From a virus, in the IMG/VR virus record IMGVR_UViG_3300004472_000067, positions 1 to 21,471 of that record: DNA of 21,471 nucleotides. The stretch is one strand, 5' to 3'. The notes under the pieces were generated by a model. The model was not told where the DNA came from. It was given only the letters and a program-made list of their open reading frames with translations, and searched no databases. Positions within the stretch are counted from its first letter, which is position 1, and each line of letters begins with the position of its first letter. This document shows positions 1 to 6,613 of this stretch, piece by piece. Position numbers and translations under genes: made by a program.

Positions 1-444
1 ACTGTAAAATCCGAAGCACAAAGTGCGTTGGCCGCTGCAAAAGGTGCTGCCGCCAACTTTGAACAAACTCTAATGGAGTTTGCAGAATCGACCCAAGCTC
101 AAATTGAAAACCTTGAACAGCAAATGATTGGTGCTACACAAGATGTAATCCATCAATTGCAACAAGATATTGAAGATTTGAAAAGTGCGGTGGAATCGAA
201 GATCCCGGCGTGGATGCATAAAACTCCCGAACAGTTGCTGCAAGATGCAATTAGTGGAATATGTGACCCTGCCGTTGATGGAATGGTTGTGCCGGATGAA
301 GGGACTGCTAAAAAAGCTGCTCCATCAACCGCACCTGCTACCAATCCGGGGCCAACTCCGGTTGAAACTTTTGCAGTTCCATCAAAACCTCCTATTAATA
401 CCAACCCAATTGTGGTTGATCCGGTAACAGGTGTAACGCCGTAA
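1..444 (+). CDS. C-terminal part of an unidentified tail hub/spike-region protein (5'-truncated by window)
   Basis: The reading frame is open from the first base, so the gene begins upstream of the window. The TTG at 28 is probably internal rather than a start. The visible ~147 residues begin Ala-rich, then form a probable coiled coil full of Glu, Gln and Leu heptad-like spacing. A short segment with a single Cys follows, and the protein ends in a Pro/Thr/Ala-rich tail that is probably unstructured. The stop codon overlaps the next start (TAATG), so the two genes are translationally coupled. Immediately downstream lies a PAAR spike protein. In T4 this position is held by the gp5 hub/lysozyme gene, so a hub or spike-associated role is the natural inference. 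No gp5 OB-fold, lysozyme or beta-helix motif is visible in the part seen. That it is a real CDS is near certain; its function is a guess. Confidence 0.75.
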   Translation, partial: TVKSEAQSALAAAKGAAANFEQTLMEFAESTQAQIENLEQQMIGATQDVIHQLQQDIEDLKSAVESKIPAWMHKTPEQLLQDAISGICDPAVDGMVVPDEGTAKKAAPSTAPATNPGPTPVETFAVPSKPPINTNPIVVDPVTGVTP

Positions 445-1451
445 TGACAAACGTAACCAGAGTAGGTGATTCATGTGTGCCCGGTCCAAGTGGTGGATAT
501 TCTACAAATGCGTTAACCGGGTCGCCAACTGTTAACGCGAATAGTTTACCTGTGCATCGGGTTGGGGATTCATGGATTTTACCCAACCCGAATCATAAAA
601 CATCTACTGGGTCGCCCAGTGTATATGCGAACCAAACTCAGGTTGCGAGGGTATTTGATCAGACTAACACAGGTTCGATTATCAATGTAGGATCGCCAAC
701 TGTATATGCGAATGAATCGTTCATTACCGTATCTGGTGTAACTATGCCATCAAACCAGAATTCATTCAAAAATGCTGAACCACTTATTGATAATGTTGGG
801 TACTCTGGTGTTGATGATGAATTTGAAGTAAATGGGAATGCGCCGGTATACCCACCGTTACCGCAAACCTCCCCACCAACCCCAATCCCGGTATCAGTTC
901 CGGTGGCTGTAGAAGATGATACCCCGGAACCGGAACCCGCCAGCACACCAGTTTCGGATTGCCATATGATTACACTACCGATTGATTATGATTTTCAATT
1001 GAGCACCAATTTTAAATTACGTGATTTGAGTATCAATGCACTATTCCCACATACGATTAAAGCACAAAACGGGCTTACTGAAGCACAGATCGTATGCAAT
1101 CTAAAAGCATTGGCTGAAAACATTCTAGAACCGTTCAAAGCACAGTTCGGGAGTTTTCGGATTAATAGTGGATTCCGTACAAGACAAAATGGAATATCAC
1201 AGCACGAAAAGGGACAAGCCGTTGACATTCAACTTCCCGGAAAGACATATGACCAATTGTTCGCAATTGCTCAGTGGGTTAAATCTAATATGAACTACGA
1301 TCAATTGCTATGGGAACATGGTAACGCACCGTGGGTACATATTTCGTTTAATCAGGCAGGGAATCGCCCAAAAAACGCTTCCAATTCTGTCATGACGATG
1401 TATCAAAACCATTATTCACCGGGTTTGAAAAAAATTACCAACTATTCATAA
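444..1451 (+). CDS. PAAR-repeat spike-tip protein fused to an M15-family peptidase
   Basis: 335 aa in two modules. Residues 1-93 carry three PAAR-like units with RVGD and GSPTV.AN signatures (RVGDS at 6-10 and 39-43; GSP(T/S)V at 26-30, 56-60 and 83-87). This is the fold that caps gp5/VgrG spikes in T4 (gp5.4) and in type VI secretion. A Pro/Glu-rich linker covers roughly 133-170. The C-terminal half looks like a peptidase M15 (VanY/L-Ala-D-Glu carboxypeptidase type) domain: SGFR at 242-245, then SQHEKGQAVD with H254 and D261 as likely zinc ligands, then WEHG (E291) and WVHIS (H299, third ligand). I infer a membrane-piercing tip that brings its own cell-wall-degrading activity, perhaps doing the job of the T4 gp5 lysozyme domain. 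The start overlaps the preceding stop (TAATG), and the fibre gene begins 9 nt after its stop codon. The domain calls are firm; the role in infection is inferred. Confidence 0.9.
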   Translation: MTNVTRVGDSCVPGPSGGYSTNALTGSPTVNANSLPVHRVGDSWILPNPNHKTSTGSPSVYANQTQVARVFDQTNTGSIINVGSPTVYANESFITVSGVTMPSNQNSFKNAEPLIDNVGYSGVDDEFEVNGNAPVYPPLPQTSPPTPIPVSVPVAVEDDTPEPEPASTPVSDCHMITLPIDYDFQLSTNFKLRDLSINALFPHTIKAQNGLTEAQIVCNLKALAENILEPFKAQFGSFRINSGFRTRQNGISQHEKGQAVDIQLPGKTYDQLFAIAQWVKSNMNYDQLLWEHGNAPWVHISFNQAGNRPKNASNSVMTMYQNHYSPGLKKITNYS

Positions 1452-1460
1452 GGAATTAGC

Positions 1461-4400
1461 ATGAGTGAAATACTCGATAGCAGCACATGGGAACCTACGA
1501 TTTACCAAATCTCGAAAGACGATCTGGTACTTGGTGGTGCCCCAATTATCGAAGATAATCTAATTATCTCCGGTGTTGCCAACATCGCATCCCAGCAGTT
1601 GACTAACCGTACAAATTATTTGAAAGACCGTGCCGATGCTACCGATGGTAATGTTTCTGCATTAACTGATCAAATGAATACAGCTAACACCAACATCGCA
1701 ACTGCCGCACATCGACTTGACGTTCTTGAACCGATTGTATCAACCATCACCGCCAACGTAGTGCTCGCTACCGATGACGCCCGTACCTCGGCTCAACTTG
1801 CCGGAGTAAGTGCCTCAGACGCTGCTGTAAGCGCTGCAAGTGCCGCTGATGCTGCTACTAGCTGTGCAACCGCATTGCCAAATGCATCCGCTGCTGCAAA
1901 CTCCGCAACTGCCGCTGCAACATCGGCTACAACATCGGCATCAAACGCTGCCGCTGCCGGAACGTCTGCAACCGCTGCCGCTGCAAGTAAAAACGCTGCT
2001 GCAATCAGTGAAACAAACTCCGCATCCAGTGCATCTGCCGCTTCTACGAGTGCGACCAATGCTGGGGCAAGTAAAACTGCCGCTGCAAACTCCGCAACTG
2101 CCGCTGCAACTTCGGCAACTGCCGCTGCTTCTAGTGCGTCTGACTCCGCAACTTCGGCTGCTGCTTCTAGTACCTCGGCCACCAATGCATCAAATAGTGC
2201 ATCTGCCGCTTCTACAAGTGCGACCAATGCCGGTGTAAGTGCAACATCCGCAACTGCTAGTCAAACTGCCGCTGCTGCGTCTGCTACATCTGCAACTGCT
2301 AGTCAAACCGCCGCTACGGCAAGTCAGACTGCTTCTGCTGGATCTGCTTCTGCTGCACTGTCAAGTGCAAACAACGCTGGGGTTAGTGAAACTAACGCGG
2401 CAACGTCTGCAACCAACGCTGCTACCAGTGCATTAGCCGCTGCGAACAGTGCTACCAGTGCATCAACAAATGCAACAAATGCCGTAGCCGCTGCTGCCGG
2501 GGCTTCGACCAACGCGGCATCTGTTTCGACCAACGCTTCTGCTGCTGCCAATAGTGCAACCAACGCTGCTGCAAGTGCCGCTGCTGCATCTACCAGCCAA
2601 ACCGCTGCTGCAACGTCTGCCACTGCTGCTGCTGCAAGTCAAACTGCCGCATCTACCAGCCAAACTGCTGCTGCTGGTTCTGTTACTTCGGCTGCAACAT
2701 CAGCTACGAACGCCGCTGGATCGGCCACTGCTGCTGCAACATCAGCAACCAATGCATCAAATGCTTCTGCGGCTGCAACCACTAGTCAAAATGCTGCTGC
2801 AACATCAGCTACGAACGCTGCTGCTTCTGCAACGACTGCATCAAATGCTCAAGCTTCCGTAGCTGCTTCTGCAACGACCGCAACATCTGCCGCAACATCC
2901 GCAACTAACAGTGCAACCGCTGCTGGTTCAAGCCAAACTGCTGCTGCTGGGTCGGCTGCTGCTGCTGCAACATCTGCAACCAATGCATCAAATAGTGCCA
3001 CTGCTGCTGCAACGTCTGCTACAAATGCTGCAACCAGTGAAACCAATGCCGGTAATTCGGCCACTGCTGCTGGTACAAGTGCTACAAATGCTGCTGCAAG
3101 TCAAACTGCCGTAGCTGCATCCGCAACGTCTGCTGCAACGTCTGCTACAAATTCGGCGAATTCTGCAACTGCTGCTGGTACAAGTGCTACAAATGCTGCA
3201 ACCAGTGAAACCAATGCCGGTAATTCGGCAACTTCGGCGTCTGGATATGCATCCGCTGCTGCAAACTCGGCAACATCATCAGGTACAAGTGCAACGAACT
3301 CGGCGAATTCTGCAACTTCCGCTGCCTCTAGTGCAACTGACGCTGCCAACTCCGCTGCTGCCGCCTTGGCTTATTCGATCCAACACTACAGAGGTTATTA
3401 CACTACCTTAGCTGCACTTACATCAGGTGTATCATCGCCAATTGCAGGTGATTATGCGGATGTTGATGCAGGTACTGGTTCTAACGCATCGCAATACATT
3501 TGGGATACAAACGATAGTGTTTGGGTGCCTGCAAGTGCTCCTACACCAGTCACTGCGTCTCAAGTAAAAGCATTGTATGAATCGAACCTGAATACCAATG
3601 CGTATACAGATGTTGAGAAAGCTAAATTAGGTACACTGTCATCTGTTGGATATCCAAGTCTTGCGATTGCCGCAACTCTTAATATCGGATCTGTAGATTC
3701 TACTACAATTCTTATTACGCATGTTCCCGGAGTAACTGTCACATCCTTTGGTACTGCGAACGCTGGTGTGTTCCGTCAATTGATTATCGGGTCCGGGCCA
3801 GGGCATACATTAACTTACAATGCAACTTCATTGATTATTCCGGGTTCCGCTAATATCAGTGTGACCGCAGGTACTGTTGTAGAAACTGTATCGTTGGGTG
3901 GTGGTAACTGGAAAATAACTTCGGTATGTAAAGCTGATGGTACGGCGGTGGTTGGCACTCCATGGACGGGTGGTACACTAACAAGTCCTATTAACGAAGC
4001 CCCGATGCAAAACATTGGAGTGGTATCAAGTAAAATTGATTTGGGTTCTGCAACAACAAACACCCTTGTTATAAATGCATCTGATGGTAGTGCAACAGTA
4101 AGCAATTTGGGTACACTTGTTAGTGGCGCAGCTCGAAAACTTATTAACCAATATTCATCACCTGTGGTTTTTGATAGTACGGGTAATATCCTTACACCGT
4201 TTACTCTTAACTATGGGGAGGTGGCTGAACTAACATACAATGGTAGTGGCTGGACCGTTACAGGAATCGTCCAATATTCACCATCATATTATCAGGTGAT
4301 GGCTGGATTTGCGAATGGAAGTGGTTCCGCGACGGGTACTGTAGATATCGCCGGTAGTTCGACCAACCCACGTTCAGCTCCGATCAAGTTGCGTGCAGGT

Positions 4401-5546
4401 ACAAACATGACCACACCAGAAAATGGTGCGTTCGAGTATGATGGTACATCGCTAACATTTACTACAGGTAGTTCGCGACTAACACTTGCTTCACCGACGA
4501 CCAACCTTGGTACAAAATTAGATGCAACCGCTAACGCAGTGTCTGCCACCAAGCTGGTTACCGCAAGAACCATTAACGGTGTGTCATTTGATGGAACCGC
4601 CAACATCACTGTAGCGGATTCAACAAAGGCTGCGAAGGGTGCAAACTCTGACATCACCAGTTTGACAGGATTAACAACTGCATTGACAGTTGGTCAAGGT
4701 GGTACAGGGGTAACATCACTTTCAGCTCTGGCAACTGCTATGAGTTTGGATCAGGTTACAAACACCAGCGATGCCAACAAACCAGTGTCAACCGCACAAC
4801 AAACAGCTTTGAATGCGAAGTTGGCGTTGGCCGGTGGTACGATGTCGGGTGCATTGAATGAAGCTCCATATGTTACTATTGCAAGTGCATCTACTGTAAA
4901 TATCGGGGCGGCAGCGGCCAACACAATCACAATTAGTGGTACTACAACCATTACAGCGTTTGACACCGTTGCGGTAGGGACTAAACGTACAGTAGGGTTC
5001 TCTGGGTCGCTTACACTTACATACAACGCCACTTCCATGATATTAATTACGGCGGCTAACATTGTCACCCAAGTTGGTGATTATGCGGTGTTCATGTCAT
5101 TAGGTAGCGGTAACTGGCAGATGATCGATTATATTCGGAAATCTGGTGTACCTCTTGGTATTATCGGTACATGTTCTCAAACAAGTGGTGTGCCAACAGG
5201 TTCCATCATTGAAACTGGTACAAATGCCAACGGGACATACACCAAGTGGGCAGATGGTACAATGATTTGTACTAAGACATTTGCAACGTTAGCCATTGCT
5301 TCTGCAACAGGTGCAACTACTCAGTCTTCTACATATACATTCCCAGCGACGTTTGTTGGTGCGTGGAGTCCAAATTACACTGGTCAAGTAACAGACGCAA
5401 CACCATCGGTATATTCTATCGGTATGTTTGACTGTGCGGTAGCTACAAGCCAAGTAGGATGGAGATTCACTATTCGAAACACCGGTGGTACTGCAATTAC
5501 TCAGATTCTGGGTGCCGCATTTACCGCTATCGGAAGATGGTATTAA
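1461..5546 (+). CDS. Large repeat-rich side/long tail fibre protein (lambda Stf-like)
   Basis: 1361 aa, with an AGGA ribosome site 7 nt before the start. Residues 1-~70 resemble the attachment domain shared by many phage fibres, including an LTNRTNYLKDR segment. Residues ~110-635 are an almost pure Ala/Ser/Thr/Asn shaft built from short units such as SATNA, SATAA and SQTAA, as in lambda Stf, and probably form a long trimeric rod. A YYTTLAAL segment starts the distal part. It holds three related beta-rich domains (about 738-828, 857-940, 1144-1229), a GQGGTG fibre motif near 1080, and an ALAGGTMSGALN motif near 1124. The protein ends in AIGRWY, a C-terminus common in fibre tips. No collagen-like Gly-X-Y stretch or carbohydrate-cleaving motif is seen. 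It probably binds the host receptor. It is unlike T4 gp34-37, and in T4 no fibre gene sits at this place. The fibre call is strong; which baseplate protein anchors it is unknown. Confidence 0.9.
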   Translation: MSEILDSSTWEPTIYQISKDDLVLGGAPIIEDNLIISGVANIASQQLTNRTNYLKDRADATDGNVSALTDQMNTANTNIATAAHRLDVLEPIVSTITANVVLATDDARTSAQLAGVSASDAAVSAASAADAATSCATALPNASAAANSATAAATSATTSASNAAAAGTSATAAAASKNAAAISETNSASSASAASTSATNAGASKTAAANSATAAATSATAAASSASDSATSAAASSTSATNASNSASAASTSATNAGVSATSATASQTAAAASATSATASQTAATASQTASAGSASAALSSANNAGVSETNAATSATNAATSALAAANSATSASTNATNAVAAAAGASTNAASVSTNASAAANSATNAAASAAAASTSQTAAATSATAAAASQTAASTSQTAAAGSVTSAATSATNAAGSATAAATSATNASNASAAATTSQNAAATSATNAAASATTASNAQASVAASATTATSAATSATNSATAAGSSQTAAAGSAAAAATSATNASNSATAAATSATNAATSETNAGNSATAAGTSATNAAASQTAVAASATSAATSATNSANSATAAGTSATNAATSETNAGNSATSASGYASAAANSATSSGTSATNSANSATSAASSATDAANSAAAALAYSIQHYRGYYTTLAALTSGVSSPIAGDYADVDAGTGSNASQYIWDTNDSVWVPASAPTPVTASQVKALYESNLNTNAYTDVEKAKLGTLSSVGYPSLAIAATLNIGSVDSTTILITHVPGVTVTSFGTANAGVFRQLIIGSGPGHTLTYNATSLIIPGSANISVTAGTVVETVSLGGGNWKITSVCKADGTAVVGTPWTGGTLTSPINEAPMQNIGVVSSKIDLGSATTNTLVINASDGSATVSNLGTLVSGAARKLINQYSSPVVFDSTGNILTPFTLNYGEVAELTYNGSGWTVTGIVQYSPSYYQVMAGFANGSGSATGTVDIAGSSTNPRSAPIKLRAGTNMTTPENGAFEYDGTSLTFTTGSSRLTLASPTTNLGTKLDATANAVSATKLVTARTINGVSFDGTANITVADSTKAAKGANSDITSLTGLTTALTVGQGGTGVTSLSALATAMSLDQVTNTSDANKPVSTAQQTALNAKLALAGGTMSGALNEAPYVTIASASTVNIGAAAANTITISGTTTITAFDTVAVGTKRTVGFSGSLTLTYNATSMILITAANIVTQVGDYAVFMSLGSGNWQMIDYIRKSGVPLGIIGTCSQTSGVPTGSIIETGTNANGTYTKWADGTMICTKTFATLAIASATGATTQSSTYTFPATFVGAWSPNYTGQVTDATPSVYSIGMFDCAVATSQVGWRFTIRNTGGTAITQILGAAFTAIGRWY
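3017..3061 (+). repeat. 45-nt exact direct repeat, copy 1
   Basis: This segment is identical, base for base, to 3185-3229. The spacing is 168 nt, a multiple of three, so the copies are in the same reading frame (56 residues apart). It encodes SATNAATSETNAGNSA-like residues of the fibre rod. Exact identity at third codon positions suggests recent duplication or gene conversion. Confidence 0.9.
3063..3094 (+). repeat. 32-nt exact direct repeat, copy 1
   Basis: Identical to 3168-3199. The spacing is 105 nt (35 codons), so it is in frame with its partner. It begins ACTGCTGCTGGTACAAG. It overlaps the neighbourhood of the 45-nt repeat pair, and together they suggest overlapping duplications in the distal end of the fibre rod. 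Confidence 0.88.
3168..3199 (+). repeat. 32-nt exact direct repeat, copy 2
   Basis: Second copy of the 32-nt repeat found at 3063-3094, offset by 105 nt and in frame. It runs into the second copy of the 45-nt repeat (3185-3229). Confidence 0.88.
3185..3229 (+). repeat. 45-nt exact direct repeat, copy 2
   Basis: Second copy of the 45-nt repeat found at 3017-3061, in frame within the Ala/Ser/Thr-rich rod of the fibre gene. After the copy the sequences diverge at once (CAACTT here, CCACTG there, after the shared final C). Confidence 0.9.
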
Positions 5547-6241: not shown

Positions 6242-6613
6242 ATGAGTAAATTTCTAAACAATCTGAAAAGTGAACAGTTGGGTAAATGGAACCATAGACT
6301 ATTGGCCCAACTTGATTTGCAGGATGACATTCATGGGGTGATTAGCGCTCCTGTAGATTTTGAAACAGACTTTGCATCAATCAACTCAATGCATAACATC
6401 ATTTTATTTCCTATATGGGCATTGGTGGCTGGGTATGGTAATCCATCTGCCGCATTGCATGACCATCTGTACACTACAGGTGAACTTAGCCGTAAAGAAT
6501 GTGATGGTGTTTTGTACCGTGCTTTAAGAGCTGAAGGTGTCGCTAAATGGCGTGCTTGGATGTTCTGGGCCGGGGTTCGTATTGGTGGTAGAAGTCATTA
6601 CATGACTGCATAA
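6242..6613 (+). CDS. DUF1353 family protein
   Basis: 123 aa, with an AGGT ribosome site just upstream. The family signature is clear: DFETDFAS at 39-46, a hydrophobic middle (IILFPIWALVAG, 53-64), ALHDHLY at 71-77, and a helical ECDGVLYRALRAEGV segment at 86-100, ending in a W/G-rich tail. DUF1353 proteins are common in tailed phages, often near lysis or tail genes, and their biochemical function is unknown. The conserved Asp and His residues of the HD-type motif hint at a metal or catalytic site, which is inference only. It is the last gene before a strong terminator, closing the tip/fibre transcription unit. Confidence 0.85.
   Translation: MSKFLNNLKSEQLGKWNHRLLAQLDLQDDIHGVISAPVDFETDFASINSMHNIILFPIWALVAGYGNPSAALHDHLYTTGELSRKECDGVLYRALRAEGVAKWRAWMFWAGVRIGGRSHYMTA

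Follow-up and report, generated by a model that had tools for sequence, protein, structure and literature searches.

A PAAR spike-tip protein with a predicted M15 peptidase domain in T4-like phages whose gp5 has no lysozyme match

The central spike of phage T4 bears its wall hydrolase, a lysozyme, within the chain of gp5. The gp5 trimer is capped by the PAAR protein gp5.4, which sits on it as a monomer. In our Pfam searches the Phage_lysozyme domain of T4 gp5 spans residues 183-310 and the 97-amino-acid gp5.4 consists of PAAR only, as stated in an earlier note on the DNA studied here. The last strand of gp5 is said to bind gp5.4 (PMC4576200). Peptidases on phage tails have a precedent in the baseplate hub protein gp15 of Anabaena phage A-1(L): its peptidase domain is reported to have lysed host cells in vitro, and mutants to have been inactive (PMC10966104). 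We liken the two systems by description, with no M15 kinship implied, and the A-1(L) enzyme, as described there, is located on the hub and not on the spike cap. PAAR proteins of phages are portrayed as standalone and unfused in a jumbo-phage overview (PMC7824862). Here, we describe a viral gene that probably encodes the central-spike tip of a T4-like contractile tail, in which a cap-borne M15 peptidase of predicted activity would replace the shaft lysozyme during wall entry.

The window, i.e., the whole stretch of DNA analyzed, comprises 21471 bases of an IMG/VR virus record. One continuous ORF encodes a tip protein in which both constituent Pfam families exceed their curated cut-offs: PAAR_motif (PF05488) at residues 24-78 (E 1.2e-8, 35.5 bits vs 27) and Peptidase_M15_3 (PF08291) at residues 197-300 (E 2.4e-5, 24.9 bits vs 23.2). 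The top PHROG is PHROG 894, labelled 'endolysin' (residues 181-330, E 1.9e-17), and PHROG 281, PAAR, matches as well (E 2.8e-11). A phmmer search with the whole protein returned just SalCis10 (PAAR, E 1.6e-4) and one match at E 0.87. The fusion of PAAR to an M15 domain, and with it the placement of a hydrolase domain on the tip protein, had been proposed in the earlier note, and both hold: the two domains lie in one ORF and both are confidently modeled by AlphaFold2.

Table 1. Coordinates of the tip gene, its parts and the truncated upstream gene in the window (L009 is an overlapping contig).
Feature	Position	Strand	Evidence or remark
C-terminal 147 aa of 197-aa protein, Pro-rich tail	1..444	+	complete at L009:1727-2320
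PAAR-M15 spike-tip gene, 335 aa	444..1451	+	ORF, Pfam, PHROGs, AlphaFold2
PAAR domain, residues 1-97	444..734	+	Pfam PF05488; fold match T4 gp5.4 4KU0, c1882 4JIW
Pro-rich flexible linker, residues ~98-172	735..959	+	low pLDDT; invariant residues
M15 metallopeptidase domain, residues 173-335	960..1448	+	Pfam PF08291; 1LBU fold match
H254 codon, predicted zinc ligand	1203..1205	+	invariant 50/50 representatives
D261 codon, predicted zinc ligand	1224..1226	+	invariant 50/50 representatives
E291 codon, possible general base (predicted role)	1314..1316	+	invariant 50/50 representatives
H299 codon, predicted zinc ligand	1338..1340	+	invariant 50/50 representatives

The AlphaFold2 model was built from an alignment of 55 rows (A5) that includes standalone PAAR rows and M15 domains, and reached a mean pLDDT of 80.8; an earlier run with 7 rows (A3) gave a pLDDT of 40.6 and was discarded. 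Per ten-residue block, the PAAR part scores 85-96 up to residue 90, the M15 part is mostly at or above 90, and values fall below 50 at residues 98-102 and 104-159. Since the domain bounds in Table 1 follow this profile, the Pro-rich linker and subsequent M15 domain of the earlier note are retained, and the end of the PAAR domain moves from its residue 93 to about 97. The linker starts with a conserved NQN...NAEPLI stretch, and Q105, N106, N110 and D125 in this region are invariant among six aligned PAAR-M15 proteins.

In structure comparisons, the PAAR half best matches PAAR caps, namely c1882 (4JIW, Z 13.6) and T4 gp5.4 (4KU0, Z 12.3). The best solved match of the M15 half is the zinc DD-peptidase 1LBU, which we take to be the Streptomyces albus enzyme (Z 11.6 over 122 residues, rmsd 3.0, 18% identity); it shares the fold of the M15 domain and has no PAAR. 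Hedgehog domains follow at Z 5.8-7.0, and L-Ala-D-Glu-type enzymes score lower (ChiX 5.0, LysECD7 4.9, Ply500 4.5). 1LBU surfaced in this second structure comparison only and was absent among the 50 Foldseek matches listed, and searching solved structures with an M15-domain profile gave no match up to E 10. The best Foldseek matches in a viral library were a 329-aa viral protein, gp5 of phage pf16, and a 701-aa protein.

With T4 gp5.4 the window protein shares the PAAR fold, the place between gp5 and gp6 and a matching last gp5 strand; it differs by the added linker and M15 domain and by lacking several His/Cys residues of other PAAR caps. Such residues near the PAAR tip bind metal and are not required for membership of the Pfam family. 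In an alignment, the GH, HCC..CH and CGS positions shared by many standalone phage PAARs are mostly replaced in the PAAR of the window lineage, so that its tip may well carry no metal.

The gene upstream of the tip gene is truncated by the window edge, and a whole copy was therefore taken from contig L009 (IMGVR_UViG_3300004617_000112), which overlaps the window over 6608 bases with zero mismatches and carries a complete gp5 and the 197-aa protein ahead of the PAAR-M15 gene. This gp5 consists of an OB domain and the trimer β-helix. Pfam detected no enzyme domain, lysozyme included, in any of eight gp5 proteins of the lineage (L009, L010, L015, L016, L017, L019, Milchi and Astolliot), and in the run that included six of them the lysozyme of the positive control, T4 gp5, was recovered at E 1.3e-12. 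In alignment A4 the lineage proteins offer no equivalent for the bulk of the T4 lysozyme region, and both ends of gp5 are kept; the last strand reads GSRIDL, GSRVDL or GSTIDL in the lineage and GSRIDI in T4. The earlier note had suggested inspecting the complete upstream gene, where a full lysozyme domain would have spoken against its reading; none is seen in the full-length gp5 that L009 supplies for this virus. Compared with the T4 spike, the central spike would again bear one kind of virion-borne wall hydrolase, here a predicted one, but with a bare shaft and a peptidase on the cap. The gp5-like proteins adjoining the tip gene in Aura and Vibrio phages likewise have an OB domain and no lysozyme by Pfam; gp5 of PA5oct was looked for and not found.

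The PAAR-M15 gene sits between gp5 and the wedge genes gp25, gp6, gp7 and gp8, and window genes match the T4 wedge proteins gp25, gp6, gp7, gp8, gp9 and gp10, with a gp11 match under the cut-off. The stop of the 197-aa protein gene overlaps the PAAR-M15 start, and the lineage loci examined all have this gene, with its conserved Pro-rich tail, in the interval from gp5 to PAAR-M15. The Milchi counterpart is 46% identical; no Pfam family scored above cut-off. A role as partner of all PAAR-M15 proteins was rejected, as the Vibrio phage gene in that place is dissimilar. Downstream of the tip gene, positions 1461-5546 encode a fibre-like protein of 1361 aa, rich in Ala, Ser and Thr and without a match in Pfam, whose length and C-terminus differ among relatives (1050, 1050 and 655 aa) and whose gene is missing at the corresponding place in Milchi and Astolliot. 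Between this gene and gp25, positions 6242-6613 encode a DUF1353 protein (PHROG 1158, 'tail assembly chaperone').

A tblastn search of the tip protein against 50,697 phage records gave matches in 115, of which 25 cover at least 80% of the protein. These near-full-length relatives are Milchi and Astolliot (68-69% identity), 11 members of the PA5oct group (46%), nine of the Aura group (46-47%) and three Vibrio phages (41%). PAAR was above the Pfam cut-off in one checked member of each of the four groups; the M15 match of Milchi (22.2 bits) is under the cut-off, and the PA5oct and Vibrio phage proteins gave no Pfam M15 match. At least four phage groups with names thus already have the PAAR-M15 fusion in GenBank, where it stands unremarked, and no description of it in phages was found in the open PMC literature searched. 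The PA5oct (gp239), Aura and Vibrio 1.255.O groups share the single-chain PAAR-linker-M15 layout with the window protein at 41-47% identity, and differ in having their own genomes and gene neighbours. The PA5oct record notes a 'putative baseplate hub sub and tail lysozyme, muramoyl-pentapeptidase' with a PAAR motif. With genomes of 287 kb, the PA5oct group is an exception to the standalone-PAAR statement of PMC7824862. In two loci PAAR-M15 adjoins ribonucleotide reductase genes and not the baseplate cluster: L064:3404-4504, judged by eye, and PA5oct L003:8001-9023, by annotation.

We additionally scanned IMG/VR with an M15 alignment, using search motifs that favour this subfamily. The scan confirmed 143 loci, of which we considered the best 80. 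Their 92 M15 ORFs collapsed to 50 representatives at 90% M15-domain identity, of which 46 remained after exclusion of four cut ones. Among these 46, from the best 80 of 143 loci, M15 is located at the gp5 C-terminus in 31, on PAAR in nine and on other proteins in six. The 31 gp5-M15 proteins comprise 19 with M15 alone, ten with an additional GH19 domain (gp5+GH19-M15) and two with a lysozyme (one gp5+LYS-M15, one gp5+LYS2-M15); since the local profiles used to assign gp5 enzyme domains derive from one or two sequences, the 19 may include proteins with a missed second enzyme. This distribution shows the M15 subfamily as an apparently mobile spike-tip module. The gp5-M15 spikes, found in pf16, Cr30, Synechococcus phage BUCT-ZZ01 and metagenomic relatives, share with the window protein the M15 subfamily and its position at the C-terminal end of a spike protein, but carry it on gp5, where three copies are expected, often with a separate PAAR gene nearby. 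In pf16 itself, gp5 (L006:7014-8546) was published as a tail-associated lysozyme; Pfam finds OB and a sub-threshold M15 and no lysozyme, and the next gene encodes DUF5675. As to a single origin of the PAAR fusion, the tree requires four label changes, and an AU test did not reject one PAAR-M15 clade (p 0.273; p 0.365 without L064). IMG/VR scans with single proteins gave one locus for the Aura protein and zero confirmed loci for the PA5oct and Vibrio proteins. Two of the six cases on other proteins (L018:4980-5774 and L055:3701-4474) have a short N-terminus and adjoin a gp5 with a T4-type lysozyme at its end; they have no PAAR, yet retain a stretch resembling the region right after PAAR, and are perhaps PAAR-M15 proteins that lost their PAAR.

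A lysozyme or GH19 domain accompanies M15 in 12 of the 31 gp5-M15 proteins, so that M15 is not in every case a substitute for the glycan cutter. These doubly armed spikes lend some support to a reading in which M15 is auxiliary and a different virion protein, encoded outside the window, does most of the wall cutting, as does a 1183-aa protein near the spike genes of Aura, annotated 'endolysin' though free of Pfam matches. However, when the complete records of six genomes of the lineage (G001-G004, Milchi and Astolliot) were searched, PF00959 lysozyme was found in none, with two matches in the T4 control, and Pfam detects no further enzyme domain in the lineage gp5. This makes an auxiliary role unlikely, though a further wall enzyme may exist among the other virion proteins.

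The M15 zinc motif is H-x6-D ... H, and the tip protein contains it as H254, D261 and H299. These three residues and E291, which the earlier note had placed at the same positions, are invariant across the 50 representatives of the M15 subfamily, as is R245. Of ten pairs taken for dN/dS, three unsaturated at synonymous sites gave M15 values of 0.029-0.040 and the remaining seven had no usable M15 value; in these three pairs the domain is, as far as codon comparison tells, under strong purifying selection. We infer from these patterns that the tip M15 binds zinc and is active as an enzyme. Cleavage of a cross-bridge would fit 1LBU as the closest solved fold, and L-Ala-D-Glu cleavage would be compatible as well. 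A catalytically dead domain with a binding or structural role only could be argued from the predicted nature of the activity; set against the invariant motif and the purifying selection, this is very improbable. The record of PA5oct flags its homologue, 46% identical and the sole relative seen with mass-spectrometry marks, as ESI-MS/MS, suggesting that this homologue is a virion protein.

The M15 domain might also serve to release progeny when infection ends, as an endolysin whose fusion to PAAR is incidental, as the label of PHROG 894 and the annotation of the Milchi PAAR-M15 copy, both 'endolysin', would have it. Yet the tip gene is fused to a spike cap within a baseplate cluster, and all six lineage genomes have a GH108 gene and a Hydrolase_2 gene, both away from the tip gene; the two Milchi genes occupy 33815-34300 and 37794-38426, likewise under the label 'endolysin'. 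Together with the gp5 location of M15 in two-thirds of the uncut representatives (31/46, among the best 80 of 143 loci), this leaves very little credence for a release function. Finally, a type VI-like effector whose peptidase damages the cell envelope instead of opening a path for the tube would share the layout of PAAR, linker and C-terminal hydrolase, but is hardly credible for a gene in a T4-like baseplate cluster (gp25, gp6-gp10) and not in a T6SS, all the more as a phage that opened the wall more widely than at one spot would presumably impair its own infection. Among bacterial and archaeal genome contigs, a pattern scan confirmed five relatives, all in Prevotella or Hoylesella records, with no PAAR-M15 fusion among them; as these match the M15 half only, the resemblance to type VI PAAR effectors drawn in the earlier note is one of layout, and the scan lends kinship no support.

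We favour, then, a cap-borne peptidase that acts in wall entry, and the interpretation of the earlier note is, as a whole, supported; neither of the two outcomes that the note had named as refuting was encountered. In this mechanism, the PAAR half would cap the gp5 β-helix trimer like T4 gp5.4, and the zinc M15 peptidase would hang from it on a Pro-rich, flexible tether some 70 residues long. The evidence for docking on the trimer end consists of the gene neighbourhood and the conserved gp5 end. Upon sheath contraction, the cap would pass first through the outer membrane and deliver the peptidase into the periplasm, where it would cleave stem or cross-link peptides of peptidoglycan and let the tube pass. 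The tip peptidase would thereby substitute for the lysozyme domain of T4 gp5 that is absent from the gp5 of this virus. If PAAR is monomeric on the trimer here as well, a virion would carry one enzyme and not three. A wider proposal, for which we see even chances, is that a T4-like branch moved wall breaching from three shaft lysozymes to a single tethered cap peptidase, with one enzyme molecule per virion, and that evolution has exchanged the M15 module between the end of gp5 and the cap, so that phages would have their own equivalent of PAAR effectors.

The window lineage places the PAAR-M15 fusion in T4-like phages of ordinary size too, beside the PA5oct group. Annotation labels are affected, among them 'endolysin' for the Milchi copy and the tail-associated lysozyme name of pf16 gp5. 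Should the tip peptidase prove active, phages would be seen to arm the cap as well; the protein also raises the testable question of how many wall-cutting enzymes are needed per virion and whether they have to be shaft-bound.
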